Assembly (NCBI GenBank): GCA_008363265.1
Contig: RHKR01000097.1
Coordinates: 1 to 13,123, forward strand
From: Chlorobiota bacterium
GTDB lineage: Bacteria > Bacteroidota > Ignavibacteria > Ignavibacteriales > Ignavibacteriaceae
Direction: 5' to 3'
Length of the DNA: 13,123 nt
Position 1 is the first letter of the stretch, and every line of letters begins with the position of its first letter. The position numbers were made by a program, and so were the translations under genes. The notes under the pieces were generated by a model, which had not been told where the DNA came from, ran no database searches, and worked only from the letters and a program-made list of their open reading frames with translations. Below are positions 164 through 13,123 of this stretch, one piece after another.

Positions 164-1189
164 TTAGTGGTTTGAATATTCGAATTGCTGATTCATCAGC
201 CATTCCTGGGCGCTCAGCTCCTCGATGGTTTCGCGTGGAGCGAGCGAATATTTCTTGTTTGGATCGAGTACCCGGGCCTTCACGTTATCGTGGAGGTATA
301 TCTCGAGTACGGTATTTCTTAAATAATTTTTGATCGAGCGGTCAAACACAGGCGTCATCAGCTCAACCCTCCGGTCGAGGTTCCTCTGCATGATATCCGC
401 GCTGCTTATATAAAGGTCTTCCTCACCGTTGTTGTAGAAGTAGAAGATCCGCGAGTGTTCCAGATATCTTCCGACAATACTTCTCACCCGGATATTCTCT
501 GAAATGCCGGGAAGTCCCGGTACGAGACAGCAGATACCCCTCACTATCAGGTCGATATCCACTCCCGCCTGTGAGGCTTCATAAAGGTAACCGATAATAT
601 CGGGGTCGACGAGTGAGTTAACTTTTATGATAATTCTTGCCTTTTTCCCCTGTTTCGCCCATTCGATCTCGCGGCTGATCAGTTGCTCTATCCTCTGCCG
701 GAGGTTTATCGGAGCAACGGCCACCTGACGGAAATCCTTCTGCGCGCTGTATCCGGTCAGGATATTGAAGATGTCGCTTACATCGTTGCAGATGTCCTCA
801 TTGCAGGTCATAAGCCCGAGATCGGTGTACAGTTTTGCTGTTGAAGCGTTATAGTTACCGGTGGCCACGTGCACATACCGGGTGAGCTGGTGCTGTTCGC
901 GGCGGACCACCAGTGTCATCTTGGCGTGGGTTTTTAGGCCGATTAGTCCATATACCACATGCACGCCGACACTTTCAAGTTGTTTTGCCCAGTAGATATT
1001 GTTCTCTTCGTCGAACCGTGCCTTGAGTTCAACCAGAACGGCCACCTGTTTCCTGTTCTCAGCTGCTTCGATAAGGGCGGCAACCACGGGTGAGTTCTTT
1101 CCGACGCGGTAGAGGGTCTGCTTTATTGCCAGCACATCAGGATCGCGGGATGCCTGCTTGATAAAATCAACGACCGGTTTGAATGATTT
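164..1189 (-). pseudogene. ppk1: Polyphosphate kinase PPK1, C-terminal catalytic part, out of frame with the N-terminal part
   Basis: The PPK1 homology resumes at KSFKPVVDFIKQASRDPDVL and runs 341 residues to TAA at 164. It contains LAIKQTLYRVGKNSP, VELKARFDEENN, GLKTHAKM (the conserved His corresponding to E. coli His435, the autophosphorylation site), YVHVATGNYN (equivalent of His454) and, in the second HKD-like domain, GRYLEHSRIFYF (equivalent of His592). All expected catalytic residues are therefore present. The first usable start in this frame is a GTG at 1135 inside the conserved region, which does not look like a natural start. Between the two parts the family's G-D-[IV]-L-L-H/Y-H/Y-P-Y segment is missing. 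Restoring about 11 residues would give a protein of about 703 residues, the usual PPK1 size. The two parts should be read as one interrupted gene, or as an intact gene with an assembly gap. Confidence 0.85.
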
Positions 1190-2241
1190 ATCACCTGAAA
1201 AATACTCTCTTCCTCAAATATCTTGGGAAGCTTCGGGATGTAAGGTTTCTCCTTTATCTGACTGAGAGGGAGAGAGTAAAAACTCATCACATCACTCAGC
1301 CCAAGAGGGGGAACCAGGGGATAGACATCCGAATACTGAATCTCAAGATTTGTTACTATCGTTTCGATCATTTTCGCGGGCATTTCGCGGTCAACCTCGA
1401 GCCTCACGACGTTTCCGAACATCCTCTGTTTTATATTCTCTTCTATCTGCTCGAGGAGGTCGTCCGCCTCGTCTTCCTGTATCTCGATGTCTGTGTCGCG
1501 TGTAAGCCTGAAGCAGTAGGCCTCCAGAATTTTCATTTTAGGGAAGAGGCGACCGATGTTTGACCTGATCAGGTCTTCCAGCCAGATGAATCTGATCTCG
1601 CCGTTATTGCCGTTATCTTCAGGTTTGGCGAGGATTGTATCTATCCTGAGAAGTCTGGGGAGAATGCCCGGGACTTTCACTCTCGCGAAGCGGGTCTCGC
1701 CTTCGGTATCCTTGATCGTCACCGCGAGGCTTAGTGATAAATTCGAAATATAGGGAAACGGCCTTCCCGGGTCGAGTGCCAACGGGGTGAGGACGGGAAA
1801 TATCTGCTGCTCAAAATATTCGCTGAGCTTCGCTCTTTCACCCGAAGTAAGTTTAGCGCATGAAGTTACGGACACACCGCAGTCTTCCAGTTCAGGCACG
1901 ATGTGGTGGTTCCAGTATTCCTGGAGGTTATCCACGAGCGGCCGCACTTCCTTTTCGATCTCGTGAAGGGTTCTCTGAGGAGTAAGACCGTCGATCGTGA
2001 TCTCGGAAATGTTGGCAGCGATCTGCTCTTTTATACCCGACACACGGATCATATAGAACTCATCGAGGTTCGAGCAGAAGATCGAAATGAACTTGATCCT
2101 CTCGAGCAGGGGGAGCCCGGGGTGCAGGGCTTCGTCGAGCACCCGCTTGTTGAACTCGATCCAGCTCAGGTCGCGGTTTATAAAATTTTCAGGAACCAGA
2201 TACTTTTTGATCTGGTCTTTTATCCGGTCTTTTCTCTTCAT
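1123..2241 (-). CDS. ppk1: Polyphosphate kinase PPK1, N-terminal part of a broken gene
   Basis: PPK1 makes long-chain polyphosphate reversibly from ATP. This open frame (372 codons) holds the N-terminal and head domains. NFINRDLSWIEFNKRVLDEA at residues 19-38 and CSNLDEFYMIR a little further on are the family's opening signatures, the latter containing the Asn that contacts the nucleotide. The frame matches the family up to about residue 351 (ESIFQVI). The last 21 residues (NHSNRSL to CWQ) are nonsense, and the true PPK sequence resumes in another frame. The ATG at 2241 has no convincing Shine-Dalgarno, only an A/T-rich upstream stretch, which is common in this phylum. The upstream region carries a loose TATATTTA on this strand but no promoter I would defend. 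If the break is real, the product lacks both catalytic histidine domains and cannot be an active kinase. Confidence 0.88.
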   Translation of the reverse strand: MKRKDRIKDQIKKYLVPENFINRDLSWIEFNKRVLDEALHPGLPLLERIKFISIFCSNLDEFYMIRVSGIKEQIAANISEITIDGLTPQRTLHEIEKEVRPLVDNLQEYWNHHIVPELEDCGVSVTSCAKLTSGERAKLSEYFEQQIFPVLTPLALDPGRPFPYISNLSLSLAVTIKDTEGETRFARVKVPGILPRLLRIDTILAKPEDNGNNGEIRFIWLEDLIRSNIGRLFPKMKILEAYCFRLTRDTDIEIQEDEADDLLEQIEENIKQRMFGNVVRLEVDREMPAKMIETIVTNLEIQYSDVYPLVPPLGLSDVMSFYSLPLSQIKEKPYIPKLPKIFEEESIFQVINHSNRSLILSSRHPAILMCWQ

Positions 2242-2473
2242 ATTTCATTTTTTATTAAACCATAAATATACAAAGATTCAGGGAGATTTCAGAGAGGGAA
2301 CGGGAGGGTGAGGGGGAGGATCGTACGGCTGGTGGGTTGTTACTGTTTACAGAGGGAAGTCACTTTGTTTGGTCTAATTTATAAAAATAATTATATTTTG
2401 AGCTGACAGGGGCATTAAATTTCAAATTATTAAAAAAAATATTGTACAAAAACAAAAATATTTTAGAAACCTC
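2242..2473. other. Divergent intergenic region without a recognised gene
   Basis: This is the gap between the minus-strand ppk1 start and the plus-strand promoter copy 1. It holds a G-rich plus-strand stretch (about 2286-2325) and then an A/T-rich stretch (about 2378-2465) directly upstream of the promoter. No coding frame, terminator or repeat could be supported. The ppk1 promoter must lie here, but I could not place it with confidence. Confidence 0.5.
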
Positions 2474-2503
2474 TTGACTTTAAAATGAATAAATCGTAAA
2501 TTG
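2474..2503 (+). promoter_or_regulatory. Promoter copy 1 (TTG -20 nt- TAAATTG)
   Basis: TTGACTTTAAA begins at 2474 and TAAATTG lies at 2497-2503. The start-to-start distance of 23 bases is identical in all three promoter copies of this window. The layout resembles the Bacteroidota housekeeping promoter (-33 TTG, -7 TAnnTTTG), with a one-base shorter -7 element. It is followed exactly 10 bases after the start of TAAATTG by the invariant 19-base box, so transcription probably starts within or just before that box. It would drive protein A, the giant surface protein and protein B. Confidence 0.72.
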
Positions 2504-2506
2504 CTT

Positions 2507-2885
2507 TCAGGTTATGTGAGGTTTAGTCAACAATTTCCGGCAACAAAAAAAGGAGTAGTTCTTTAATCTTTTAGATAGACAATTTTAGGAAAGCGCGCCA
2601 TCAAAAGTTTTGGTTGGTGATGGGAAAAGGCTTATCAATTCTTCGAATCCGCCCCCGCGGAGGCCGCTTTCCTCTTTTTAATCCCGCAATCGTAACCTGA
2701 TCTAAAAAGATCCGTCCACTTTATGCAATCCCAGACGATCATTCAATGACATCCATGAGCCACGCTTTTTAGCCGCATTTACGCGGTTTAACTGCTGTCA
2801 ACCAAGAGCCATGTAAATGTCAACATGTAGTCCCCGTTCACGCGGACGACTTGCAATGCTTTATATAATAATCAAAAATATAAAT
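2507..2885 (+). promoter_or_regulatory. Structured 5' leader copy 1, upstream of protein A and the giant surface protein
   Basis: This untranslated leader is about 380 nt long. It opens with the box TCAGGTTATGTGAGGTTTA (2507-2525), shared exactly with the other two leaders. A purine-rich AGGAG near 2551 has no start codon at a useful distance. Next comes a possible three-way junction: P1 AGGAAAGCG (2587-2595) with CGCTTTCCT (2665-2673); P2 CCATCA (2598-2603) with TGATGG (2618-2623), a 14-nt loop; P3 TCCGC (2648-2652) with GCGGA (2657-2661), loop CCCC. A T-rich tract follows, then ATCGTAACCTGATCTAA (2689-2705), which matches leader 3 at 15 of 17 positions. A further CCGC/GCGG hairpin sits near 2773-2786. 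No known riboswitch class was recognised. Because P1' is followed by five T, part of this could also act as an attenuator. Confidence 0.55.
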
Positions 2886-3077
2886 ATGCTCTCTTACAAA
2901 TATTCTTTTGATGAAACCTACGACAGGCCCCTTCTTCCGGAGCGGAAAACAGAACGCAAACGGAGCTGGAAGGCGACACTGGTAATTCTGCCAATACTTG
3001 TCGTCATTGGCACTGTACTGCTTGTTTTCAGTCCGGTTAAGATGGTGCAGCTCCTGTTCGAAAAGTTCTCAGCATAA
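2886..3077 (+). CDS. Small single-span membrane protein A (63 aa), unknown function
   Basis: Not recognised from any named family. The start is set at the ATG at 2886 because the protein then begins MLSYKYSFD, matching the paralogue at 12385 (MLAYKYSFD). A longer reading from 2817 adds 23 unmatched residues. The N-terminal 28 residues are polar and carry a KTERKRSWK basic patch. One hydrophobic span follows (about residues 29-49, LVILPILVVIG onward), then SPVKMVQLLFEKF. The basic patch before the span predicts N-in, C-out topology in the inner membrane. The YKYSFD start, the VILPIL core and the SPVKMxQLxxEKF end are conserved in the paralogue, while the linker is not. There is no Shine-Dalgarno; the upstream region is A/T only. 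The giant surface gene starts 30 bases downstream, so the two are probably co-transcribed. Confidence 0.8.
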   Translation: MLSYKYSFDETYDRPLLPERKTERKRSWKATLVILPILVVIGTVLLVFSPVKMVQLLFEKFSA

Positions 3078-3107
3078 ATATCCACAAACAAAAGGTTAGG
3101 TTCTCTT

Positions 3108-6100
3108 ATGAGAAAAAGGTTACAATCTTTAGTTAATCTTCTGATTCCTGTTTCAGCGGGAAAGACAGTTGGACTCATGGCCATCTTCTTTCTTTTGTCC
3201 GCTGAAGTTGTGATTGGACAAAATATGGCCAATTACACTTTCTCAGCGACATCAGGATCATACACAGCCCTTACTGGCGCAACAACGGCCACGCTCAGCG
3301 CCGGTACTAACGATGAAGGTACTTACAACTCAATTCCTATCGGGTTTACCTTCACTTACATGGGTCGTCAATATACGACCATATCAGCATCAACAAACGG
3401 GTGGCTGACTTTTGGACAGTCGATCTCCTCCTATGCACTTTCAAACGCACTCGCGACCGGAGGAACCCGCCCGCTAATCGCCCCACTCTGGGACGATAAC
3501 GACATGACCAGCGGCTCGTTCAGTTACAAGACTGAAGGTTCAGCTCCGAACAGGGTTTTTACCGCTCAGTATTCAAACGTGGAATGGAACTACAATGCCG
3601 CGAGCGGAGTGATCTCATTCCAGGTAAAGCTTTACGAAGCTTCAGGGGCGGTGGAATTTGTCTATAATCCAGAAGCAGGTACGGTCACTTCCGGCTCAGC
3701 ATCGATCGGTATAGCTGCAACAGCAACAGGATCGGGAAATTACCTTTCGCTCAACGGCACTGGGACAAGTCCCACTGTAAGTTCCGCAACAGAAACAACG
3801 ACGCTCGCAACCAAACCTTCGTCAGGCCAAGTGTATACTTTTACACCACCTGCAACAGTTCCCTTGGATCCATCCGGACTGTCATTCACCTCTGTAACAA
3901 TCTCGGGGATGACACTGAACTGGACTGATAACTCATCTGATGAGGTTGCTTTTTCGATCCTTAGATCGGATGACAATGGCGTAACTTATAATGTTGTAGG
4001 CAATGTTGCTGCAAATACGGCGACATATGCTGCCACTGGCCTATTACCAGGGACGACCTACTTTTGGGAAGTCAGGGCACTAACTGAAGGAAGAGCTAGC
4101 GGTGCATCATCAGGATCACAGGCCACAAATGCTGCTTCGTTCAGCGGTACAAAATCAGTTGGGCCCACGGGTGATTATGGAACACTGACAGCTGCTCTCG
4201 CAGATATCAACACACAAGGCCTTTCGGGCCCTGCAATCCTTGAACTGCAGACAGGTTATGTTTCCACTTCAGAGACCTTCCCGATCGTTTTCAGTAATTT
4301 CGCGGGACTTTCAGCGACGAACACACTGACGGTCAGGCCGGTAACAGGTGCTACAGGACTCTCGATCTCAAGCTCGAACACGACAGCCACCATCTCAATG
4401 AATGCCGGTGATTACGTTACCATCGACGGAAGACCGGGAGGAAGCGGCTCGAACAGGGAACTGACTATAACCAATACTTCTGCGTCGGGTCCCGCGATCC
4501 TGTTCATTAACGATGCGACAAACAATAACATCAGATATTGCACCATCACAGGTACCGCGAACACCAGCACATCTTCAGGTGTTATTTTCTTTAGTACTAC
4601 GACAGGAACCACAGGTAACGACAATAATATTATAGAATATTGCGATATCAACGCTTTTGGTTCAGCCCATGGAATATATGCCGCAGGTACGACAGGTGCT
4701 GACAACAGCGGTGTGCAGATCCTCAACAACAATATCCGTGATTTTTACATCAGCAGTTCTTCAACGACATCAACGTACGGTCTCAGGCTTGGTTCTGCAA
4801 ATACAGCCTGGACAATATCAGGGAACAGTTTCTACCAGTCTGCATCAAGGGCATATTCATCAACTGCAGTAATCCATTACATGCTTGGTATATCAAACTC
4901 ATCAACCGGTAACGGATTTGTGATCTCCGGCAACTATTTTGGCGGAAGCGGACCGCTGGCCACAGGCACCTATACAATGACCACAGGCCAGCAGAGATTG
5001 TTTGTGATGGATCTGACTGTCGGAACCACAACCGCCACAAGTATCCAAGGCAATCTAATTACAGCTATCGCTTGTACAACTGCATTTACAACAACAGGTT
5101 CTTCGGGCATCCTGGGAATGAATCTTTCAGCAGGATCATTTAATGTCGGCACGGTCACGCGTAATACAATAGGTTCCATCACGGCTACCGGGGCCATTAA
5201 TCTTCATATTACTGGTGCAACAGGTCCACTGTTTGTTGGTATCAACTACGCGGCCACCTCCGGAACCACAGTGATCCATAACAACGCGATCGGCGGATTG
5301 CTCGCAACGACAACAACAGCGACGGCATACCTGAGCCTATATCCGATATCGGTAAGTCAAAGCGGTCATACCCTTACGGTATCAGACAATATCATCGGAA
5401 GCACAACCGTTGCCAACAGTGTTTATAACAATACAGGAGGGACATCAACTTCCACTTACCAGACGAGAGGCATAAACCTTTCTTCAACTGGTGTAATAAC
5501 CATTTCAGGCAATACCATTGCGAATATAACCGCTTCCGGTACCGGTACTGCAACCACCCTGGCGGGCATCTATCTCTCTGCCACACCCTCGACAACGGGA
5601 TGGACAATAACCGGCAACACGATCCGCAACCTGACAAATGCCTCGACCTCAACGGTTTCAACAACCATTCTTGCCGCACTGTCAGGAATTGCAATGAGCG
5701 GTTCACAGAACCACCAGGTCTCAGGCAATACCATCCATTCGCTCGTGAACAGCGCAGCAAGTGCCACTGTCACCGTTTCGGGTATCTATTTCTCTGGGTC
5801 ATCATCATTACAATCAAGGCTTGAGAAGAACTTCATACATTCGCTCTCTACCACATCGACAAGTTCCTCCGCTGTAGTCAATGGTATAATACTCACGGGT
5901 GGATTACACTCTCTCAGAAACAACATGATCAGGCTGGGAATTGACAAGGATGGGAATGCGATTACCAATCCAAACTTTATCAACGGTATCTACAAGACTG
6001 TCGGCACAGTAGGCTCCTATTTCCACAACAGCGTTTACATCGGTGGCACAGGAGTCGGGGCGGGCACAGGCAAATCACACGCGTTCAGAAAGACCGGCAC

Positions 6101-8810
6101 ATCGGGCGCTGACAGCTTGTTCAACAATATTTTCTTCAACGCCCGTTCAAACGCTTCCGGAGGCGGCGCCAGACATTATGCGTTCGCGGTTAACCAGTCC
6201 AGCGGTCTTGTGTCCAATTTCAATGTGATCTTCGTATCGGGAACTGACGGCACATACGGCACCCGCGACGATGGATCAACAACCAATTACACAACCATTG
6301 CTGACCTGAGAACCGGCTTCGGAACTGATGCAAATTCGATCGCGTACAACCCCAACTATACAAACGCGACCGGTTCAAGCTCTCTCGTTGATCTTCATAT
6401 CTCCAATCCGACGGTTGTCGAAGCAACAGGAACGAATATCACCTATGTGACCGAAGACTTCGACGGAGCAGCCAGAAGCGGACTTACCCCGGTTGACATT
6501 GGTGCCGACGCTGGTAATTTCACGCCGCTTGATGTATCTCCTCCTGTAATCACATACACTGCGCTTTCAGGTACATCCAGCACCTCCTCCAGAACACTTG
6601 CAAGTGTTACTATCTCCGATAACAGCGGTGTGAATGTAACCGCGGGAACCGCTCCGAGGATATACTTCAAGAGGTCAACAGACGACAACGTCTTCGCCGG
6701 CAATACCGACGCGGACAACGGATGGAAGTATGTTGAATCAACCACGGGTTCCTCGCCCTTCTCTTTCACGATAGATTACAGTATCCTCTTCGGTGGCGGG
6801 GTTACAGCCGGAAATATCATCCAGTACTTTGTTGTAGCGCAGGACCAAGCAGCAACACCGAGTGTCGGCATTAATTCGGGCAGTTTTGCCACGACGCCTT
6901 CTGATGTTGATCTTGCGGGTGCTTTCCCGATAGGAGGAACCATCAATTCCTACTCGATAGTTGGCAGTATTTCAGGTACATTCACTGTCGGAGCAAGCGG
7001 AGCCACATATACCACGATTCAGAATGCTGTAAATGATGTCGCCTCGAAAGAAATGACGGGTGCCGTTCAGCTCAATCTTATTGACGCGACCTACGCTGAA
7101 ACCGTCACGATCCCTGCCTTTACCGGCAGCAGCGCGACCAATACCCTGACGATCAAACCGACCGGAACCTGCGCGATAACCACAACATCAGCAACTGCGG
7201 TGATCAACATGTCAGGATCCGATTATGTGATAATTGACGGTTCAAGCACACCGGGTGGATCAACCAGGGACCTGACCATTACCAACAACAGCACTTCCAC
7301 AAACTCGGGAGTGGTCTGGGTTACGAACAACGGTACCAACGGCGCAACAAACAATACATTCAAGAATCTGAATCTTTCAGGGAATGCCTCAACAACCACA
7401 TTCTGCGGAATAGGTACCGGAGGCAGCACCATTGGTGCCACACTGGGCTCGGGCAACAATAACAATGTGATCGACAATTGTATTTTTACAGGATCTGTTT
7501 ACGGTATTTACACATCCGGAGCAAGCGCATCCTCGAAGAACACCGGCACCCAAATAATAAATAACCGGATACTGTCAGGAGTCGGCAGATTCGGTATCTA
7601 TGTCGGATTTGAAGACGGTGTGATAATCAGGAACAATCAGATCGGTGGTATATCCAATAGTGGTTCAGTGGATGCATTCGGTATAACCCTCGGTTTGAAT
7701 GCATTTGCCAGCACTTCTGCAACCGGTAATGAAGTAACCAATGCCACTGTCACCTTTAACACTATCACACAGGTCTTTCAATCCAATACCTACAGCGCGG
7801 CAGGTATCGCGGTTGCAACTGCAACTTCGGGTACAACACTAATAGCAAACAACATGGTCAGTGGTGTGGCATCGAACGCAACCAGTGGAGATATCAGCGC
7901 TGGCATCTTCCTTGGCGGGGGTACGGGAAGCACAACCAATGTATATCACAACAGTGTGTGGATGAACGGTGCGATCCCCGGGACTACAGCAGGAACACAA
8001 GCCTCATTTGCGCTTGCAATCGTGGCTACGACACCTGTGGTGGATATCCGCAACAATATCTTCAGAAACACCCAAACTCCGAACACAAGTGGAACTACAA
8101 AATTCTACGCTGTGGGGCTCTCCTATACATCAACCACAGGTAACTACCTAAATCTGACATCTGAAAACAACATACTTGATGTCGCATCCGGGGCTGCTTA
8201 CTTCGTCGGAATTACGGGCAGCCTTTCTGCCGGTACGACCCGTTTGGCGATAGCAGACTGGAGAACGGAAACAGGGCGTGACCTTCTTTCACAGCAGGCA
8301 AATCCGCAGTTCCATACTTTCTCGAACCTGCACGTCCTTCCGACCTCCCCGGCAAGCAACTCGGGAGCCAACCTGACATCGGTTGTCTCAACCGATTATG
8401 ACGGTGAGGCAAGGTCAACAACGCCCGATATCGGTGCGGATGAGTTCGTGTCAAGTGCGGCCTCTGTTGCTGGTTCAATAACATCTCCGACTCTCAGCAG
8501 CTATACCGCATTGTTCGCTTTAACGAATTCCGGTGGTGTAGAGATAAACCCAACTTCATATTCAACAGGTGCAACTTTCACTGCCCAGTACTTTGGCAGC
8601 GGAAGAACAGGTGCTGTTCCTGCAGGAGTTCTTAACCTGTCACCTTACTATTGGACACTTTCCTCGGATGCGAGCAGTTTCTTCCTCGGATGCGAGCAGT
8701 TTCAACGTGGCGATAAGATTCTACTTCGACCAGATCGCAAGCAGTGGTGTATCCGATTACAGCACCTTGCGCCTCTACAGAAGAGCAGGTACAGGAAATA
8801 CTTGGACTGA
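3108..8810 (+). CDS. Giant secreted beta-helix surface protein, N-terminal 1858 residues plus out-of-frame tail
   Basis: Secreted T9SS cargo, probably a cell-surface or adhesin-like protein; its ligand is unknown. The start ATG at 3108 opens a long signal peptide (basic MRKR, hydrophobic residues about 20-36) with predicted cleavage at IG|Q, so mature Gln38. Residues about 40-245 form a beta-sandwich module (PIGFTFTYMGRQY, STNGWLTFG, PLIAPLWDD) common in FCB surface proteins. A fibronectin type III domain follows (about 250-340). Then come two right-handed parallel beta-helix modules (about 345-1140 and 1286-1778) rich in GN(T/Y/F)I-type turns and Ser/Thr/Gly. Each ends in a DxDGxARS...DIGAD motif. 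An Ig-like linker (about 1143-1283) lies between them. A Gly/Ser-rich C-terminal module begins near 1780. Reading is correct up to SSDASSF (residue 1858). After that the 22-bp duplication at 8660-8703 shifts the frame, and the last 42 residues are spurious. The protein as encoded lacks its sorting domain. Confidence 0.88.
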   Translation: MRKRLQSLVNLLIPVSAGKTVGLMAIFFLLSAEVVIGQNMANYTFSATSGSYTALTGATTATLSAGTNDEGTYNSIPIGFTFTYMGRQYTTISASTNGWLTFGQSISSYALSNALATGGTRPLIAPLWDDNDMTSGSFSYKTEGSAPNRVFTAQYSNVEWNYNAASGVISFQVKLYEASGAVEFVYNPEAGTVTSGSASIGIAATATGSGNYLSLNGTGTSPTVSSATETTTLATKPSSGQVYTFTPPATVPLDPSGLSFTSVTISGMTLNWTDNSSDEVAFSILRSDDNGVTYNVVGNVAANTATYAATGLLPGTTYFWEVRALTEGRASGASSGSQATNAASFSGTKSVGPTGDYGTLTAALADINTQGLSGPAILELQTGYVSTSETFPIVFSNFAGLSATNTLTVRPVTGATGLSISSSNTTATISMNAGDYVTIDGRPGGSGSNRELTITNTSASGPAILFINDATNNNIRYCTITGTANTSTSSGVIFFSTTTGTTGNDNNIIEYCDINAFGSAHGIYAAGTTGADNSGVQILNNNIRDFYISSSSTTSTYGLRLGSANTAWTISGNSFYQSASRAYSSTAVIHYMLGISNSSTGNGFVISGNYFGGSGPLATGTYTMTTGQQRLFVMDLTVGTTTATSIQGNLITAIACTTAFTTTGSSGILGMNLSAGSFNVGTVTRNTIGSITATGAINLHITGATGPLFVGINYAATSGTTVIHNNAIGGLLATTTTATAYLSLYPISVSQSGHTLTVSDNIIGSTTVANSVYNNTGGTSTSTYQTRGINLSSTGVITISGNTIANITASGTGTATTLAGIYLSATPSTTGWTITGNTIRNLTNASTSTVSTTILAALSGIAMSGSQNHQVSGNTIHSLVNSAASATVTVSGIYFSGSSSLQSRLEKNFIHSLSTTSTSSSAVVNGIILTGGLHSLRNNMIRLGIDKDGNAITNPNFINGIYKTVGTVGSYFHNSVYIGGTGVGAGTGKSHAFRKTGTSGADSLFNNIFFNARSNASGGGARHYAFAVNQSSGLVSNFNVIFVSGTDGTYGTRDDGSTTNYTTIADLRTGFGTDANSIAYNPNYTNATGSSSLVDLHISNPTVVEATGTNITYVTEDFDGAARSGLTPVDIGADAGNFTPLDVSPPVITYTALSGTSSTSSRTLASVTISDNSGVNVTAGTAPRIYFKRSTDDNVFAGNTDADNGWKYVESTTGSSPFSFTIDYSILFGGGVTAGNIIQYFVVAQDQAATPSVGINSGSFATTPSDVDLAGAFPIGGTINSYSIVGSISGTFTVGASGATYTTIQNAVNDVASKEMTGAVQLNLIDATYAETVTIPAFTGSSATNTLTIKPTGTCAITTTSATAVINMSGSDYVIIDGSSTPGGSTRDLTITNNSTSTNSGVVWVTNNGTNGATNNTFKNLNLSGNASTTTFCGIGTGGSTIGATLGSGNNNNVIDNCIFTGSVYGIYTSGASASSKNTGTQIINNRILSGVGRFGIYVGFEDGVIIRNNQIGGISNSGSVDAFGITLGLNAFASTSATGNEVTNATVTFNTITQVFQSNTYSAAGIAVATATSGTTLIANNMVSGVASNATSGDISAGIFLGGGTGSTTNVYHNSVWMNGAIPGTTAGTQASFALAIVATTPVVDIRNNIFRNTQTPNTSGTTKFYAVGLSYTSTTGNYLNLTSENNILDVASGAAYFVGITGSLSAGTTRLAIADWRTETGRDLLSQQANPQFHTFSNLHVLPTSPASNSGANLTSVVSTDYDGEARSTTPDIGADEFVSSAASVAGSITSPTLSSYTALFALTNSGGVEINPTSYSTGATFTAQYFGSGRTGAVPAGVLNLSPYYWTLSSDASSFFLGCEQFQRGDKILLRPDRKQWCIRLQHLAPLQKSRYRKYLD
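8660..8703 (+). repeat. Perfect 22-bp tandem duplication that shifts the reading frame
   Basis: Bases 8660-8681 and 8682-8703 are identical, back to back. Twenty-two is not a multiple of three, so the upstream frame is lost after SSDASSF. Deleting one unit restores a single frame reading SSDASSFNVAIRFYF and a total of 2120 codons from 3108 to 9489, including the stop. The repeat fits slipped-strand replication, a revertible event. It equally fits an assembly error. Confidence 0.95.
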
Positions 8811-9489
8811 AATAACAGCAGGTCTTACAAAAACTGCAACCTATATCGAAGTTTCAGGCCTGACCTCATTCAGCGAATTCGCATTCGGTGGTGATGTCGA
8901 CAACCCCCTCCCTGTTGAACTGGTTAACTTCCAGGCTAAGGTAAAGAGCAGAAGCGCCCTCCTCAGCTGGGAAACCAAGACAGAGGTTGACAACTCAGGC
9001 TTTGAAGTTGAAAGGATGGACAAGGACGGTGACTGGAAGAAAGTGGCTTTCATAGAAGGACACGGAACCAGTAACTCGACCAAGTATTACAGCTTCGAGG
9101 ACAAGAAACTCTCTTCAGGCAAGCATTCATACAGACTGAAACAGATCGACAACGACGGCACAGTTAGCTACAGCGAAGTATTGGATGTATCGATCGATCT
9201 TCCGGCAGAGTTCGCACTAAGCCAGAACTACCCGAATCCGTTCAACCCGTCGACCAAGGTTGACTACCAGCTCGCGGCCGACTCAAGGGTCACCATCGAG
9301 CTCTACGGTATCACGGGCGAAAGAGTGGCGGTTCTGGTTAACCAGGAACAGGAAGCCGGCTACTATACGATGATGATAGACAGCTACACCCACCGCATGG
9401 CATCGGGTATCTACATCTACCGCATGATAGCAACAGATGCGGCAGGTAAAAACTTTGTCGCCACCAAGAAACTTTCATTATTAAAGTAA
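8683..9489 (+). pseudogene. C-terminal part of the giant surface protein, with T9SS type A sorting domain, out of frame
   Basis: This is the natural continuation of the gene starting at 3108, in the +1 frame, 268 residues to TAA at 9489. In restored numbering it finishes the module with YFDQI..SGVSDYSTLRLYRR and then enters a fibronectin-like module (DNPLPVELVNFQAK, WETKTEVDNSGFEVER, about residues 1923-2025). It ends with a 92-residue type A sorting domain (about 2028-2119) carrying QNYPNPFNPSTKVDYQL, ITGERVAVLVN and MASGIYIYRM. Such domains direct export through the T9SS and are normally removed or exchanged for an anchor at the cell surface. The fragment has no signal peptide and no credible start of its own; ATG codons such as 8569 lie inside the upstream coding region. 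The last 205 codons align without gaps to the gene ending at 11960. Confidence 0.85.
8871..9489 (+). repeat. Duplicated 3' coding cassette, copy in the giant surface gene
   Basis: This stretch of 619 bases aligns without any gap to 11342-11960, both ending exactly at the stop codon. It encodes the end of one module, the DNPLPVEL module and the sorting domain. Protein identity is highest in the sorting domain. Confidence 0.85.
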
Positions 9490-9508
9490 AGAGCAGGAGA
9501 ACATGATT

Positions 9509-9697
9509 ATGAACAATGAATTATATAATTGGACAATAAGCCACGGAGATTATCACCGTCAGCATGGAGACTACGACAAACTCTACCAGAGAGGGAAGAA
9601 ACGGGATAAACTTTTCCGGGCTTTACTCTGGCTTGGGGCAGCGTTCGTTACATACATTGTCTTCTTTAAGGTTCTTGCCTACGCAGCAGGAAAGTAG
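9509..9697 (+). CDS. Small single-span membrane protein B (62 aa), unknown function
   Basis: Not recognised from any named family. AGGAGA at 9495-9500 is only 2 bases from the ATG at 9503 but 8 from the ATG at 9509, so the latter start (MNNELYNW) is preferred. It also lines up with the paralogue MSRNLYQSW at 12627. The N-terminal half is polar and Tyr/Asp-rich (GDYHRQHGDYDKLY), followed by a basic KRGKKRDK-like patch. One hydrophobic span follows (about residues 37-55), ending FFKVLAYAAGK. N-in, C-out topology is predicted. W-x-I-x-x-GD-x-x-R, DYDKLY, KRD and FFKVLAYAA-K are kept in the paralogue. It starts 19 bases after the giant gene's stop, so it is the last gene of that operon, just before the terminator at 9748. 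With protein A it brackets the surface protein gene. Confidence 0.8.
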   Translation: MNNELYNWTISHGDYHRQHGDYDKLYQRGKKRDKLFRALLWLGAAFVTYIVFFKVLAYAAGK

Positions 9698-9747
9698 GGA
9701 ACCGATGAACTTTTCCTTCTAAAAGAGAAAAGACCTAACCACCTTGG

Positions 9748-9777
9748 CCCGCCCCCAGTGATGAGGGCGGGTTTTTT
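9748..9777 (+). terminator. Rho-independent terminator after protein B
   Basis: CCCGCCC (9748-9754) pairs with GGGCGGG (9765-9771) around a 10-nt loop and is followed by six T. It closes the A / giant protein / B unit. Its arms and part of the loop resemble the terminator at 11987, suggesting the whole end of the unit was copied along with the locus. Confidence 0.92.
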
Positions 9778-9856
9778 ATTCTTCAATACATTCGATTTCT
9801 CTCCTGGTCTCACCGATCAGAAATTTGAAATAATATTAAAAATATTCAGTTAAATA

Positions 9857-9886
9857 TTGCATCTAATTTGAATAGTTTGTAACTTG
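9857..9886 (+). promoter_or_regulatory. Promoter copy 2 (TTG -20 nt- TAACTTG)
   Basis: TTGCATCTAAT starts at 9857 and TAACTTG lies at 9880-9886, again 23 bases start to start. The invariant 19-base box begins exactly 10 bases after the TAACTTG start, as in the other copies. The upstream element has diverged more than in copies 1 and 3, which share TTGACTTTAAA. It would transcribe the cargo gene starting at 10206. Confidence 0.72.
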
Positions 9887-9889
9887 CAT

Positions 9890-10205
9890 TCAGGTTATGT
9901 GAGGTTTAATTAACACTATCCATTCATCAACAAACGGAGGTGCCTGCAAAGGTCCCAAACATCTGCACAGATACAACGAAAAGCCTGATCACAAGATTGG
10001 TTCTTTGGTCAGGGAAAAAGAAATGCTTCTTCATTCTGCTTTGGCAGGTGACATACTTTCCGCCCCATTTATTACCTCCAACATAACCTTGCCATAATGA
10101 CCCGGTGGTTGACACTGATTCGTGAAAACGCGTGAATCCATGTTACCTCGATTCGCGGTTCAATCTTTACAAACTCAAGATCTTTTAATAACTGTAAGGT
10201 TTATC
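9890..10205 (+). promoter_or_regulatory. Structured 5' leader copy 2, upstream of a T9SS cargo gene
   Basis: The leader starts with the same 19-base box (9890-9908) and AATTAAC, then CAACAAACGGAGGT with no start codon at a useful distance. The clearest stem is CCTGATCA (9984-9991) with TGGTCAGG (10006-10013), eight pairs including one G-U, around a 14-nt loop as in leader 1. It is followed by GGGAAAAAG and a weak AATG/CATT stem. The enclosing P1 is poor here (CGAAAAG with CTTTCCG, one mismatch); a competing pairing of 9943-9951 with 10039-10048 is possible. ATAACC (10083-10088) corresponds to the conserved block after P1' in leaders 1 and 3. No A- or B-type gene intervenes before the cargo start. 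Confidence 0.45.
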
Positions 10206-10856
10206 ATGAGGAAATTTCTTCTTTTTAATTCAGACAGTCCCCGGATACGCAATTTTCAATTTAGTGTTGCTTTACTGGTTACAGCACTTCTGGTGTCACT
10301 GCCGGTCACATACGGTCAGTCGAACTCAGCTGCAGGGACCGGAAGAACCGGCTACACTTCAACTTCACTTCAGAAGGGGGATTACAAGCCTCAGGAGGTG
10401 ACAGAAGAGTTTGAGATCACTGAACTCTCGTACAGTACAAATTTTACAGCCGAACTTGGCTGGCGGCTCGAGCCGTCATCAGGCGACCTGCTGATCTCCA
10501 AGGTAAATGCCACGAACAGGTTCGGTACGGCGAACGATCCCACATACAAGTTTGATTTTTACTACAGGTCAAACGGTACCCGGCAGATAATTGCCGGTCC
10601 GGAAATGGACCTTCGCGGTTACACAAATCCGAAGCTGAAATTCGATGTGTCACACTGCGTGTATGTACAATTCAGTCCCAGTAACGACAGGCTGGAAGTG
10701 GTGTACACAACCGATAATGGAGCAACCTGGCTGACAGGTTCTCCCGCGTTGTACAACAAAGCAGGAAGTGTGCTTGCGACAAGGGCACTTGACTACAACC
10801 CTTTCACCCCTTCACTTGCATCCGAGTGGAGACGGGAGACGGTTGACCTGAGCTAG
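10206..10856 (+). CDS. T9SS cargo surface protein, N-terminal 216 residues, ended by an in-frame TAG
   Basis: The ATG at 10206 is preferred over the GTG at 10122. It follows AAGGTTTATC, much like the giant gene's start, and it opens a signal peptide (MRKFLLF, hydrophobic residues about 19-35) with cleavage at YG|Q after residue 37. That is the same length and cleavage context as in the giant protein. The mature part (about 50-216) looks like a beta-sandwich module with GPEMDLRGYTNPKLKFDVSH, RLEVVYTTDNGATW and EWRRETVDLS, a wording typical of MAM/cleaved-adhesin-like domains. Codon 217 is TAG (10854-10856), inside the perfect palindrome GAGCTAGCTC. The same frame continues with the rest of the domain. 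As written, the product is a secreted fragment without a sorting domain. Other genes in the window end normally with TAG, so general recoding of TAG is unlikely. Confidence 0.8.
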   Translation: MRKFLLFNSDSPRIRNFQFSVALLVTALLVSLPVTYGQSNSAAGTGRTGYTSTSLQKGDYKPQEVTEEFEITELSYSTNFTAELGWRLEPSSGDLLISKVNATNRFGTANDPTYKFDFYYRSNGTRQIIAGPEMDLRGYTNPKLKFDVSHCVYVQFSPSNDRLEVVYTTDNGATWLTGSPALYNKAGSVLATRALDYNPFTPSLASEWRRETVDLS

Positions 10857-11960
10857 CTCGCCGGAATGAGCGGTATAAGGCTCGGCTTCAGGGGTGTGAG
10901 CAATAACGGGAATAACGCGTTCATCGATAATATTTACATCTACGAAGGAGGGACGACACACTCTCAGACGGTTACGGCCTACAATACGCAATGGCAATAC
11001 TTCGGTACCACCGGTATAGGTATCAGGTTCAGCACAGGAAACAGCCTGGACGTGAACCTTACCGTGGATAAGATAAATTCGAACCCGGGGGGAACTCTGC
11101 CTCCCGGAGATTTGACAAATCTCGGAAAAATTTACTGGTCGGTGACGGTAAATTCAGGAACCGCGGATGGTACCTACTCGTTTAGCGTTGATTATCGTAA
11201 CTATCCCGGAGTAAATAACAAAAACACGGTTCATCTCCTGAAGAGGGACAACGAAACGGCGGAGTGGGTCGATCTGGGTACCCCTGATTTTGTTGGAACA
11301 GGTTCCTCGACAGAATGGATGTGGTATGGTTTGACCGGTTTCAGCGAATTCGCTATCGCCGGAGGTGATGACAACCCCCTCCCCGTTGAACTTGCCAACT
11401 TCACGGCTAAGGCAAAGAACCGGACTGTAACCCTGAAATGGGAAACAAAAACCGAGGTTGACAACTCCGGATTTGAAGTGCAGCGGCTCGATGGGGAAGG
11501 TGACTGGAAGAAGATTTCTTTCATCGAAGGACACGGAACAACCAACTCGACCAAGTACTACTCGTTCGAAGATACCAAACTACCGGCAGGCAAACACTCG
11601 TACAGACTGAAACAGATCGACAATGATGGCACCACTTCCTATAGTGATGTCGTTGAAGTTACGATCGATCTTCCGAAAGAGTTCGCTCTAAGTCAGAACT
11701 ATCCGAATCCGTTCAACCCTTCGACCAAGGTTGACTACCAGCTCGCAGCAGACTCAAAGGTTACCATTGAGCTCTATGGCATCACGGGCGAAAGAGTTGC
11801 GGGTCTTGTAAACCAGGAACAGGAAGCGGGCTATTACACCATGATGATAGACAGTTACACCCACATGATGGCTTCCGGTATCTACATCTACAGGATGATA
11901 GCTACCGGTCCGACGGGGAAGAGCTTCGTGATGACGAAGAAACTCACGCTGATGAAGTAG
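10857..11960 (+). pseudogene. Continuation of the T9SS cargo protein after the TAG, with type A sorting domain
   Basis: Same frame as the preceding part, 367 codons to TAG at 11960; the full gene would have 584 codons. LAGMSGIRLGFRGVSNNG and NAFIDNIYIYEGG complete the N-terminal beta-sandwich domain, showing that the gene was once continuous. A second module follows (LTVDKINSNPGG to EFAIAGG), then the fibronectin-like DNPLPVELANFTAK module and a 92-residue sorting domain with QNYPNPFNPSTKVDYQL. I count 10 differences from the giant protein in these last 92 residues. The ATG at 10866 could in principle start a separate protein, but it lies within a conserved domain, has no signal peptide and no convincing ribosome site. 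A terminator follows 26 bases after the stop. Confidence 0.82.
11342..11960 (+). repeat. Duplicated 3' coding cassette, copy in the second cargo gene
   Basis: Partner of 8871-9489, same length, no gaps. Most differences are scattered single substitutions, fitting an older duplication with purifying selection or occasional gene conversion. Confidence 0.85.
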
Positions 11961-11986
11961 CAGACTGCTGACATAAATCCTTATAA

Positions 11987-12018
11987 AACCCGCCTTCAGC
12001 AGTGAGGGCGGGTTTTTT
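11987..12018 (+). terminator. Rho-independent terminator after the second cargo gene
   Basis: AACCCGCC (11987-11994) pairs with GGCGGGTT (12007-12014), loop 12 nt, followed by a T run to 12018. Sequence is close to the terminator at 9748-9777. Confidence 0.92.
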
Positions 12019-12042
12019 ATTAAAAAATATTTTTTGAACCTA

Positions 12043-12072
12043 TTGACTTTAAATCAAGAAATTACTAATTTG
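12043..12072 (+). promoter_or_regulatory. Promoter copy 3 (TTG -20 nt- TAATTTG)
   Basis: TTGACTTTAAA begins at 12043 and TAATTTG lies at 12066-12072, 23 bases start to start as in copies 1 and 2. The invariant 19-base box starts 10 bases after TAATTTG begins. It drives A' and B' and possibly the LamG-like gene beyond. Confidence 0.74.
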
Positions 12073-12075
12073 AAC

Positions 12076-12384
12076 TCAGGTTATGTGAGGTTTAGTTAAC
12101 ACCACTTTTTCACCAACACCGGAGGTTACTTTCTCTTTTAGATTCCACATTTTTCAATGAACAGCGCAGCCGTAAAGAAAATACGGTTTGTGAGGAAAAC
12201 AACTACAATTTTTGAATGCACTTCGGTGCAAAGGTTGCGCTTTTCTTTTTTTACCCCTCGATCATAACCAGATCTAATTGGACCCCCTCATAGTTTTTTA
12301 ATCCAACTACTTAATTAGCTGATACGGCCGTTTTTTGCGGTTATTCGCGTTTTAAACAATTAATGTAACATCCACAGGATTGAA
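12076..12384 (+). promoter_or_regulatory. Structured 5' leader copy 3, upstream of A' and B'
   Basis: The leader opens with the 19-base box (12076-12094) and GTTAAC, then CCAACACCGGAGGT with no start codon nearby. A branched fold parallels leader 1: P1 AGCGCA (12163-12168) with TGCGCT (12236-12241), extendable to nine pairs with one G-U; P2 CCGTA (12170-12174) with TACGG (12182-12186); P3 TGCAC (12217-12221) with GTGCA (12226-12230) closed by the stable loop TTCG. The stem sequences differ from leader 1 while pairing is kept, which suggests compensatory change. A TTTTCTTTTTTT tract and ATCATAACCAGATCTAA (12261-12277) follow. An AGGA near 12376 serves A'. Confidence 0.58.
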
Positions 12385-12615
12385 ATGCTGGCATACAAAT
12401 ATTCATTTGACGACGTGATGGAGAAACCTCTCATCTCCGCCCCCATGCCCGGGGGAGGGAAGCGAGGTTTGCTCACAACAGTGGTAATTCTACCCATTCT
12501 TTTGGCGATCGGCATCGTTTTGCTCATCTACAGCCCGGTTAAAATGATCCAACTGGCAGTAGAGAAATTTCAGGACAGGAAATTCATACCATTACAACTA
12601 AGTGAAACCGAGTAA
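12385..12615 (+). CDS. Small single-span membrane protein A' (76 aa), paralogue of protein A
   Basis: Paralogue of the protein at 2886. MLAYKYSFD at the start, VVILPILLAIG in the membrane span (about residues 31-51) and SPVKMIQLAVEKF after it are shared. The linker (SAPMPGGGKRGLL) is unrelated, and a C-terminal extension of about 13 residues (ending QLSETE) is unique. An AGGA ribosome site precedes the ATG by about 6 bases. Function is unknown. The KR patch before the span predicts N-in topology, leaving the conserved SPVKM..EKF segment on the periplasmic side. It is followed 11 bases later by B', so here A and B are neighbours rather than flanking a cargo gene. Confidence 0.83.
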   Translation: MLAYKYSFDDVMEKPLISAPMPGGGKRGLLTTVVILPILLAIGIVLLIYSPVKMIQLAVEKFQDRKFIPLQLSETE

Positions 12616-12626
12616 GGGAGGAAACT

Positions 12627-12818
12627 ATGTCGAGAAACCTCTACCAAAGTTGGGATATCACACAAGGGGATTTTTATCGTTCCCCGCGCGACTATGATAA
12701 GCTATACAAGAAACACCAGAAACGGGACAGAATTGTTGCCCTCACGGTCTGGTTAGCGGTGGCATACTTTACCGGAGTGATCTTCTTTAAAGTACTTGCT
12801 TACGCAGCTGCCAAATAG
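12627..12818 (+). CDS. Small single-span membrane protein B' (63 aa), paralogue of protein B
   Basis: Paralogue of the protein at 9509. Shared parts are W-x-I-x-x-GD-x-Y/H-R, DYDKLY, KRD and FFKVLAYAA-K; the span covers about residues 38-56. GGGAGG at 12616-12621 gives a strong ribosome site 5 bases before the ATG. The cytoplasmic half is rich in Tyr, Asp and Lys/Arg. The most conserved residues are those just before the span and the last 11 residues, suggesting protein contacts at both faces of the membrane. Translational coupling with A' is likely given the 11-base gap. Function is unknown. Confidence 0.83.
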   Translation: MSRNLYQSWDITQGDFYRSPRDYDKLYKKHQKRDRIVALTVWLAVAYFTGVIFFKVLAYAAAK

Positions 12819-12830
12819 TTAATATTTTTA

Positions 12831-12860
12831 AACCTCAGAGACCACGCCTGAGGTTTTTTT
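12831..12860 (+). terminator. Terminator-like hairpin between B' and the LamG-like gene
   Basis: AACCTCAG (12831-12838) pairs with CTGAGGTT (12848-12855), loop 9 nt, followed by T to 12860. It either ends the A'B' transcript or partly attenuates read-through into the gene at 12890. No copy of the repeated promoter is found between it and that gene. Confidence 0.85.
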
Positions 12861-12889: not shown

Positions 12890-13123
12890 ATGAAAGTAAC
12901 CGGGATAATTTTAACCGCTTTTTTAATATTTACAACCTTGGCACATTCTCAGATCGGAGGATACGCCCTAAACTTCGATGGTGTGGATGATTATGCCTAT
13001 GCGACAGCTGCAGTTCCATACGATGACAGGACCATTGAGGTGTGGATCAAGTCATCCGCATCAGTTTATCAAGTATTTATCGGCCTTACAAACTTTCTCC
13101 CCGGAAACTCTCCTTCCGTATTT
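12890..13123 (+). CDS. Secreted LamG/concanavalin-like domain protein, N-terminal part (runs off window)
   Basis: The first 78 codons are present. ATG at 12890 follows GAGG at 12879-12882. MKVTGIILTAFLIFTTLAHS is a signal peptide with cleavage at S20|Q21, again leaving Gln at the mature N-terminus. The mature part begins GGYALNFDGVDDYAYA and continues with RTIEVWIKS, the opening of a LamG/pentraxin-like jelly-roll domain (ALxFDGxDDYV ... TIExWxK) common in large FCB surface proteins. A T9SS sorting domain would be expected at the unseen C-terminus; that is inference from the neighbours. It lies 29 bases beyond the hairpin following B'. Confidence 0.82.
   Translation, partial: MKVTGIILTAFLIFTTLAHSQIGGYALNFDGVDDYAYATAAVPYDDRTIEVWIKSSASVYQVFIGLTNFLPGNSPSVF

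Follow-up and report, generated by a model that had tools for sequence, protein, structure and literature searches.

What do very small membrane proteins do beside the genes of large secreted surface proteins? The question is raised by a 13,123-nucleotide stretch of DNA (the window) from a Chlorobiota bacterium of the Ignavibacteriaceae (GenBank assembly GCA_008363265.1), which is the entire contig RHKR01000097.1 and encodes two pairs of such proteins, A with B and A' with B', near genes for cargo of the type IX secretion system (T9SS). A first-pass annotation had described A and A', and B and B', as duplicates, and an open reading frame (ORF) listing confirmed all four small ORFs in place, with 54% identity between A and A' and 50% between B and B'; only the start of B probably lies elsewhere, at 9503. 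The features on which the argument turns are the following.

2886-3077, plus strand: A, a single-span membrane protein of 63 amino acids (aa) of the A family, its start backed by counterparts in genomes G002 and G003 (MLTYKYS...).
3108-8810, plus strand: first open frame of a giant cargo, with a signal-like start judged by eye and with FN3 and choice-of-anchor Q domains above their cut-offs.
8569-9489, plus strand: C-terminal part of the giant cargo in another frame, with a T9SS type A sorting domain.
9503-9697, plus strand: B, a 64-aa membrane protein, predicted to be tail-anchored, of the W-x-I-x-x-G-D-Y family; the earlier start, 9509, is its second ATG.
12385-12615, plus strand: A', a paralogue of A that has 76 aa and an extended C-terminal tail.
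12627-12818, plus strand: B', a 63-aa paralogue of B, 11 bp past A' and with GGGAGG in front.

B appears to consist of some 41 cytosolic residues carrying the motif W-x-[IV]-x-x-G-D-[YF], then a basic stretch, one C-terminal membrane helix and about four residues outside; both B and B' of the window have the motif ahead of the C-terminal span. Topology was scored across the fetched loci (E≤1e-4), which yield 118 distinct B proteins; 112 of these remained after five of more than 130 aa and one short fragment had been dropped. Lysine and arginine were richer in the 15 residues before the span than in the 15 after it in 112 of 112 (means 5.96 against 0.68), the N-terminal part had a median of 41 residues and the tail a median of 4, and the motif W-x4-[GCS]-D-[YF], or one close to it, was present in 109. 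Because positive charge precedes the span, B is predicted to be tail-anchored in the inner membrane with its conserved part in the cytosol, which argues against direct contact with the exported cargo. An AlphaFold prediction of B (48 sequences, numbered from 9509) gave low confidence for residues 1-20 and a single helix over residues 21-61 (mean pLDDT 77.6, pTM 0.44), and in this model B resembles a small peptide in the cytosol joined to a membrane helix, without a folded domain. Its start is probably 9503 rather than 9509, since AGGAG lies at 9495-9499 and close relatives open with M-[MI]-[NTS]-[NE]. A long form of B also exists, with 13 proteins of 106-149 aa that have an extended N-terminal part and, in 10 of the 13, WW ahead of the motif.

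The first-pass annotation had recognised neither family, and the libraries agree: none of the four proteins gave a match above cut-off in Pfam or NCBIfam, the best being that of A to DUF5510 (16.2 bits, cut-off 27). A search with B and B' of 79 genomes, its own and relatives, returned strong matches inside the genus and weaker ones outside, and 42 sequences from it form alignment A3, in which W, G and D are invariant. With the profile of A3, 79 of 164 Ignavibacteriales genomes have a match at E≤1e-5. A sample of 198 genomes across the phylum gave matches at E≤0.001 in 16, of which 13 belong to Ignavibacteriales. The sample had no credible member beyond the order, the matches in G239, G088 and G093 being partial, lying within frames of 290-769 aa and given no credit. 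Against 5.8 billion proteins the profile gave 69 matches, where named nearly always as 'hypothetical protein', from Melioribacteraceae, Ignavibacteria/Ignavibacteriales, Bacteroidetes/Bacteroidota metagenome-assembled genomes (MAGs), bacterium BRH_c32 and one Syntrophomonadaceae MAG. Named relatives of B come from Melioribacter roseus, Melioribacter MAGs, Stygiobacter electus, Ignavibacteria/Ignavibacteriales MAGs and a few entries titled only Bacteroidetes or bacterium. The 42 members of A3 touched 23 Pfam families, each hit by at most two members (best E 0.0028), and the 11 members of a further B alignment, A4, gave five single weak matches to PHROGs (best E 0.0039). Single-sequence protein searches returned just two clusters each for A and B', and a scan of named genomes for a B of the window's type gave 78 stretches, 0 of them confirmed. 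Four matches to solved structures up to E 1 (two apparently designed proteins, by their names, one G-protein-coupled receptor entry and Pep12p) all fell on the helix part of the profile and were not credited. B is a very small single-span protein family without a match above cut-off in the searched libraries, found here in Ignavibacteriales only. Among the open-licence papers found on type IX secretion in Ignavibacteria, small membrane proteins or sugar transferases, no title or abstract opening names such proteins.

In the window's family B is linked to T9SS cargo. There are 77 short B copies in this family, 3 of them at contig edges, and among the 74 counted 30, from 8 genera, have a cargo gene on the same strand within 120 bp upstream, cargos being called with a profile built from the same B loci. 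A cargo takes the same position for 15 of 357 genes and 0 of 46 small ORFs in control regions (20 evenly spaced 20-kb regions of four genomes). Over 32 linked copies the gap from cargo to B has a median of 16 bp and is 9-20 bp in 17. Small B-family proteins also stand in tandem behind cargos in other genera (L072, L079, L161 and L164). Enzymes of M. roseus with Por sorting domains are described in its genome paper (PMC3534657). The attachment to surface-protein loci that had been proposed thus holds for B within the window's family and fails as a general rule, as many B copies are not near any cargo, among them those convergent with an lptB-like gene, and cargos far outnumber B. The genomes concerned are rich in cargo: of six searched, five have at least 150 sorting-domain matches each and the remaining one has 128, against only 3-8 copies of B (E≤1e-5).

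Two small ORFs stand beside these counts. In L072, just past 8228, a third small membrane ORF (48 aa) lies 18 bp after the two tandem B genes behind the cargo, and in locus L248 (G009:C7) a further B-type gene of 59 aa, which came up solely in the reverse test described below and is outside all counts, lies 25 bp behind a short-tail cargo.

In the window itself A and B do flank a giant T9SS cargo, as had been claimed, with 30 bp from A to the cargo and 13 bp from the cargo to B. Its sorting domain passes TIGR04183 (26 bits, cut-off 23) and falls below the cut-off of PF18962 (25 bits against 27). The cargo is not one open frame in this assembly, being split over 3108-8810 and 8569-9489, and where it changes frame there is an exact 22-nucleotide (nt) tandem duplication (8660-8703), which may represent an assembly error or a switchable site.

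The next question is whether B acts on the cargo that it follows or merely travels with it. When the ppk1 locus of the window is compared with that of G003, A is 62%, the cargo tail 80% and B 77% conserved, and the cargo body aligns in pieces at 28-40%. In L074, cargos of 775 and 1723 aa have B copies that are 91% and tails that are 92% identical, and their bodies match only in the last 37 residues compared. It is possible, if somewhat doubtful, that B has another core function and that the 3' end of the cargo gene, sorting domain and B together, recombines as a block, with no cargo-specific role for B. The unrelated cargo bodies of L074 fit such hitch-hiking, as does the ppk1 locus, where high conservation of the cargo is confined to its last ~200 residues; moreover, over 32 pairs the distances of B are correlated with those of the sorting domain (Mantel r 0.61, a value that 0 of 2000 permutations attained). 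In L203 the sorting domains of neighbouring cargos have been homogenised without any B, so conserved tails with swapped bodies also fit hitch-hiking, and homogenisation as an effect of B was rejected. A tree of B, built on 104 rows and 64 columns and with 54 of its 101 inner branches open, further contains a clade nearly without cargo linkage (39 of 40 rows), whose members are convergent with the lptB-like gene in Melioribacteraceae-type genomes and lie beside a BadF-type gene in the window's family. Against hitch-hiking, the cargo-linked label needs 13 changes on this poorly resolved tree, at least 5 of them forced by its starred branches, and the linkage extends over 8 genera. Hitch-hiking also leaves unexplained a second link of B, often without an intervening cargo, to sugar transferases. 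As a separate observation, L063 compared with window 3108-9489 has its cargo body largely swapped between conserved A, cargo tail and B.

Nine PF02397-like genes lie within 500 bp of the 118 B copies, where the density in the control regions (1 in 400 kb) predicts 0.29 and the per-genome rate (2-9 PF02397 matches per genome across 23 genomes) predicts 0.21, the latter a rate that is if anything high because the 23 genomes were partly chosen for these loci. Pfam confirms PF02397 in 9 of 11 B-locus transferases, the remaining two being confirmed by the genome-wide PF02397 count. Six loci of the window's family hold cargo, B and transferase together. The order is cargo, B, transferase in L155, L166 and L159, with 46, 49 and 36 bp respectively from B to the transferase and, in L159, 264 bp between cargo and B; L074 runs cargo-B-transferase-cargo-B-cargo-B, with B 149 bp from the transferase; and L072 (transferase-cargo-B-B) and L079 (transferase-cargo-B-B-B) begin with the transferase, 409-468 bp from the cargo. 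The long form of B follows a PF02397 gene by 4-23 bp in L132, L138, L139 and L140 and by 262 bp in L144; other long copies (e.g. L133, L134 and L141) have no adjoining transferase but cargo-like genes near.

How the synthesis of T9SS cargo is matched to the supply of its glycolipid anchor is, to our knowledge, an open question. In Porphyromonas gingivalis the sugar transferase WbaP, which we take to be a PF02397 protein, is required for the anionic lipopolysaccharide (A-LPS) by which T9SS cargo is anchored. Published results on wbaP mutants include the loss of A-LPS and the release of unglycosylated cargo (PMC4560394), and a linking sugar of A-LPS is placed, in another report, on the C-termini of P. 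gingivalis cargo (PMC7468200). A precedent for the control of a small transferase is found in an account of Staphylococcus aureus CapM, which is activated by phosphorylation (PMC10942596).

Judged by these neighbourhoods, B would act most coherently where anchor-glycan synthesis faces the cytosol, rather than in the folding control that had been suggested; its conserved part is predicted to be cytosolic. The W-x-I-x-x-G-D-Y peptide may dock on, recruit or regulate a cytosol-facing partner of glycolipid synthesis, of which the most likely would be the phosphoglycosyl transferase that starts the glycan tethering T9SS cargo. The synthesis of a given cargo might thereby be matched with the making or placing of its anchor. 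B is hence tentatively proposed to be a cytosol-facing adaptor of cargo-linked glycolipid synthesis, in which both the mechanism and the contact with the transferase are inferred. A family of about 60 residues that lies beside cargos, initiating sugar transferases and a lipopolysaccharide (LPS)-transport-type locus would offer a small, testable handle on how cargo and anchor are matched.

Several observations weigh against this proposal. No transferase lies within 500 bp of 109 of the 118 B copies, some of the loci ending at contig edges. The 13-kb window has no PF02397-like gene, the genome's 3 lying on other contigs, and in the four genomes of the window's genus, with 3 PF02397 matches each, none is in a B locus. 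Among 20 further hand-picked transferase loci 0 have B, and three of these B-less loci (L300, L302 and L306) still have a cargo beside the transferase, so the link between B and transferase may run through the cargo. The transferase of L074 carries an in-frame stop, and AlphaFold confidence is low over the motif part of B. The cargo linkage itself (Fisher p 2e-15 against the controls) is overstated by its p values, because neighbouring and orthologous B copies are not independent, and outside the window's family it is rare (2 of 13 in other families of the order and 1 of 23 in the named loci). The lptB-like gene is convergent with B and lies outside its operon, and other neighbours of B include mscL, aldehyde dehydrogenase, a purine-phosphorylase-like gene (by eye) and an rRNA methyltransferase.

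Two side observations concern such neighbours. In G266 a 69-aa protein lies between cargo and PF02397 transferase (L300:2999-3208 and L306:2231-2440) and is possibly a further small partner, and in two genomes from a single genus an mscL-type gene has a B-family gene directly behind it (L156:4722-4904 and L178:524-706; Pfam MscL for the L178 neighbour).

The LPS-transport-type neighbourhood is widespread among the named loci, with B abutting a convergent lptB-like ABC gene in 18 of 21, mostly after a gene of 527-553 aa; of the exceptions, L126 ends at a contig edge, and L130 and L131 differ. Pfam finds ABC_tran, OstA-type/LptD_N, LptC and aldehyde dehydrogenase among the neighbours in L116, and in L111, from an M. 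roseus MAG, the B copy of the lptB-type locus sits 92 bp behind a cargo. In several genera of the window's family another copy of B is flanked by an aminotransferase-V gene on one side and a BadF-type gene on the other (Pfam on L081). A more specific form of the adaptor proposal, in which B would be a membrane-tethered docking peptide that brings or tunes a phosphoglycosyl transferase for a particular cargo and the lptB-side copy would serve general LPS assembly, is regarded as unlikely; in this form, since B often directly follows the cargo stop codon, synthesis of a cargo would switch on its own lipid-linked anchor.

One close parallel among known systems is that of WbaP/PglC-type PF02397 enzymes and the A-LPS of P. 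gingivalis, with which the B loci share transferases beside B and cargo and the theme of cargo plus anchor glycan. B differs in being no enzyme, the portions of the A-LPS work cited here contain no counterpart of it, and the WbaP given there has 498 residues, compared with 185-293 aa for the transferases at B loci. PorP/SprF-type helpers, whose genes adjoin type B cargo, reside in the outer membrane and go with type B sorting domains; they resemble B as products of a cargo-linked accessory gene, whereas B is a single-span protein of 62-64 residues tied to type A domains. CydH, a regulatory small membrane protein, is very small, has one span and is the operon partner of a larger membrane system; B is likewise very small with one span but has a conserved cytosolic motif. 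The CydH model NF033411 matched A' only below threshold (12.9 bits, cut-off 30) and neither B nor B'.

A role in export, in which B with A or with a second B would aid the Sec export of very large cargos or their coupling to the T9SS motor, is also unlikely, and a shade more so than the docking form. The cargo linkage and the tandem small membrane genes behind cargos speak for it, and linked cargos tend to be longer (median 860 aa over 33 entries against 566 in 28 controls, Mann-Whitney p 0.019, with some entries truncated by a contig end or a frame break). Against it, B has its conserved part placed in the cytosol, many B copies are far from any cargo, and 3-8 copies per genome face the 128 to at least 150 sorting-domain matches of the same six genomes.

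The sorting domains themselves suggest one further cargo-directed role, in which B would take part in processing a cargo subtype marked by a longer last hairpin of the sorting domain. A tail of 26-34 residues is present in 14 of 31 linked and 6 of 66 unlinked cargos (Fisher p 1e-4), some tails being misread by the regular expression, which took the first match. In the reverse test, however, 6 of 26 matches taken from among the best to the long sorting domain in G003, G010 and G009 were marked as followed by B, to which the B loci L240 and L258 are added; the 7 of 20 cargos with a 27-29-residue tail that have B are nearly all from the training set of the profile or near copies; and linked cargos of the short type exist (L064, L066 and L067). 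The longer-hairpin subtype is enriched in B-linked cargos and not diagnostic of them, and a dedicated helper function is quite improbable. Such tails were seen in L062, L063, L072, L074, L077, L079, L149, L153, L155, L158, L161, L162 and L164 and in the window. Least probable of all, and very much so, is that the B proteins are small toxic or stress-type membrane peptides resembling type I toxins: their size, single hydrophobic span and tandem multiplication would suit this, set against a near-invariant cytosolic motif throughout the order, conserved synteny in Melioribacteraceae-type genomes and an operon place behind cargos.

Does A belong with B? The pair had been taken for a dedicated two-component accessory. 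The part of this that concerns B and cargo stands, through the excess of 30 of 74 over 15 of 357; the fixed pairing does not, and was rejected, as A is confined to one genus and B occurs order-wide. A search of the window's own genome up to E 10 found two copies of A only, A and A', and the family as a whole has 7 credible copies, all in four genomes of the window's genus. Six of the 7 have B directly behind them or behind the cargo, the partner B in G002 being split into two frames; the copy in G001 lacks one, both within the 3-kb locus and across the contig (E≤1e-5). Weak matches of A outside the genus (G260, G314 and G020, E 5.9e-4 to 0.0092) were not credited, and a relationship of A to B was likewise rejected, profile comparison giving only an 8-column match (probability 22). 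A is a genus-specific small membrane protein present in some cargo-B operons.

The operons of the window are also connected by what precedes them. The further features, all drawn from the same contig, are listed here.

2442-2538, plus strand: promoter-like stretch and start of the leader, copy 1, upstream of A-cargo-B; direct repeat D2, leader pattern at 2508.
2506-2725, plus strand: conserved leader copy 1, a candidate structured RNA (alignment A8 of 8 leaders, pseudoknot-type pairing).
9748-9780, plus strand: terminator-like hairpin 3' of B; repeat D11, folding z -2.8, 4 of 200 shuffles equally good.
9825-9921, plus strand: promoter-like stretch and leader, copy 2, upstream of the second cargo; repeat D2, leader pattern.
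10122-11960, plus strand: second cargo with a sorting-domain-like C-terminus, probable start 10206 and in-frame TAG at 10854-10856; no B directly behind.
12011-12107, plus strand: promoter-like stretch and leader, copy 3, upstream of A'B'; repeat D2, leader pattern.
About 12830-12860, plus strand: terminator-like hairpin with T-run, 3' of B' and 5' of the LamG-like ORF; folding z -4.7, 0 of 200 shuffles equally good.
12890-13123, plus strand: start only of a LamG-like ORF (by eye), a putative cargo that runs off the contig end.

A shared promoter had been suggested for the small genes. The 97-nt repeat D2, which comprises the promoter-like stretch and the first part of the leader, stands ahead of three operons in the window, before A, the second cargo and A', so that a conserved upstream element is borne out; a simple promoter scan lists copy 1 only (TTGACT-17-TAAATT at 2474-2502, 9 of 12 positions), with 7 promoter-like sites in all against a shuffle mean of 14.2, that is, fewer. 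Leaders of about 220 nt occur at window 2506-2725, 9889-10110 and 12075-12295 and also in L062, L063, L200, L201 and L202, from three species of one genus. There are 4 copies in the window's own genome, two each in G002 and G003 and none in G001, and no credible match was found in 76 further genomes of the family; the one match in G027, with 3 mismatches, is treated as chance because the backward control pattern matched 4 times. Three of the eight aligned leaders precede A, one A' and three a sorting-domain cargo, and the copy on G000:C74 ends near a contig edge.

The leader has helices of 9 and 8 bp in pseudoknot order, in which 90.8% of cells pair (a share equalled by 0 of 500 shuffles), 5 cells are changed on both sides (1 of 500 shuffles) and the covariation score is unreached by shuffles; these values drop on sliding the helices. 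Of five measures, two do not stand out, namely the pairs with double changes (58 of 500) and the pair types (262 of 500); the first helix is without a double change, and the RNAalifold consensus alone is weak (-4.7 kcal/mol). The window leaders had no match in Rfam up to E=1. The shared leader is a candidate cis-regulatory RNA, possibly pseudoknotted, of a surface-protein regulon, the alternative being that its helices are instead a pair of DNA-binding sites.

Whilst A'B' had been described as attached to the LamG-like gene, and does lie side by side upstream of it, the T-run hairpin stands between B' and that ORF, and A'B' therefore looks like a bicistron of its own, with 11 bp between its genes. 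A simple terminator scan listed neither this hairpin nor the one after B (5 sites, fewer than the shuffle mean of 10.8). The LamG-like ORF gave no significant Pfam match, the best being Cadherin-like (E 0.099).

As ppk1, the first cargo and the TAG-interrupted second cargo are all broken on one contig, assembly quality may be responsible for the state of these three large genes. The ppk1 gene (164-2241, minus strand) occupies two overlapping frames here and one 704-aa frame in G002. The second cargo matches PF18962 at 24.7 bits (E 3e-5, cut-off 27), TIGR04183 not being among its matches, and the tails of the two cargos share 88% identity.

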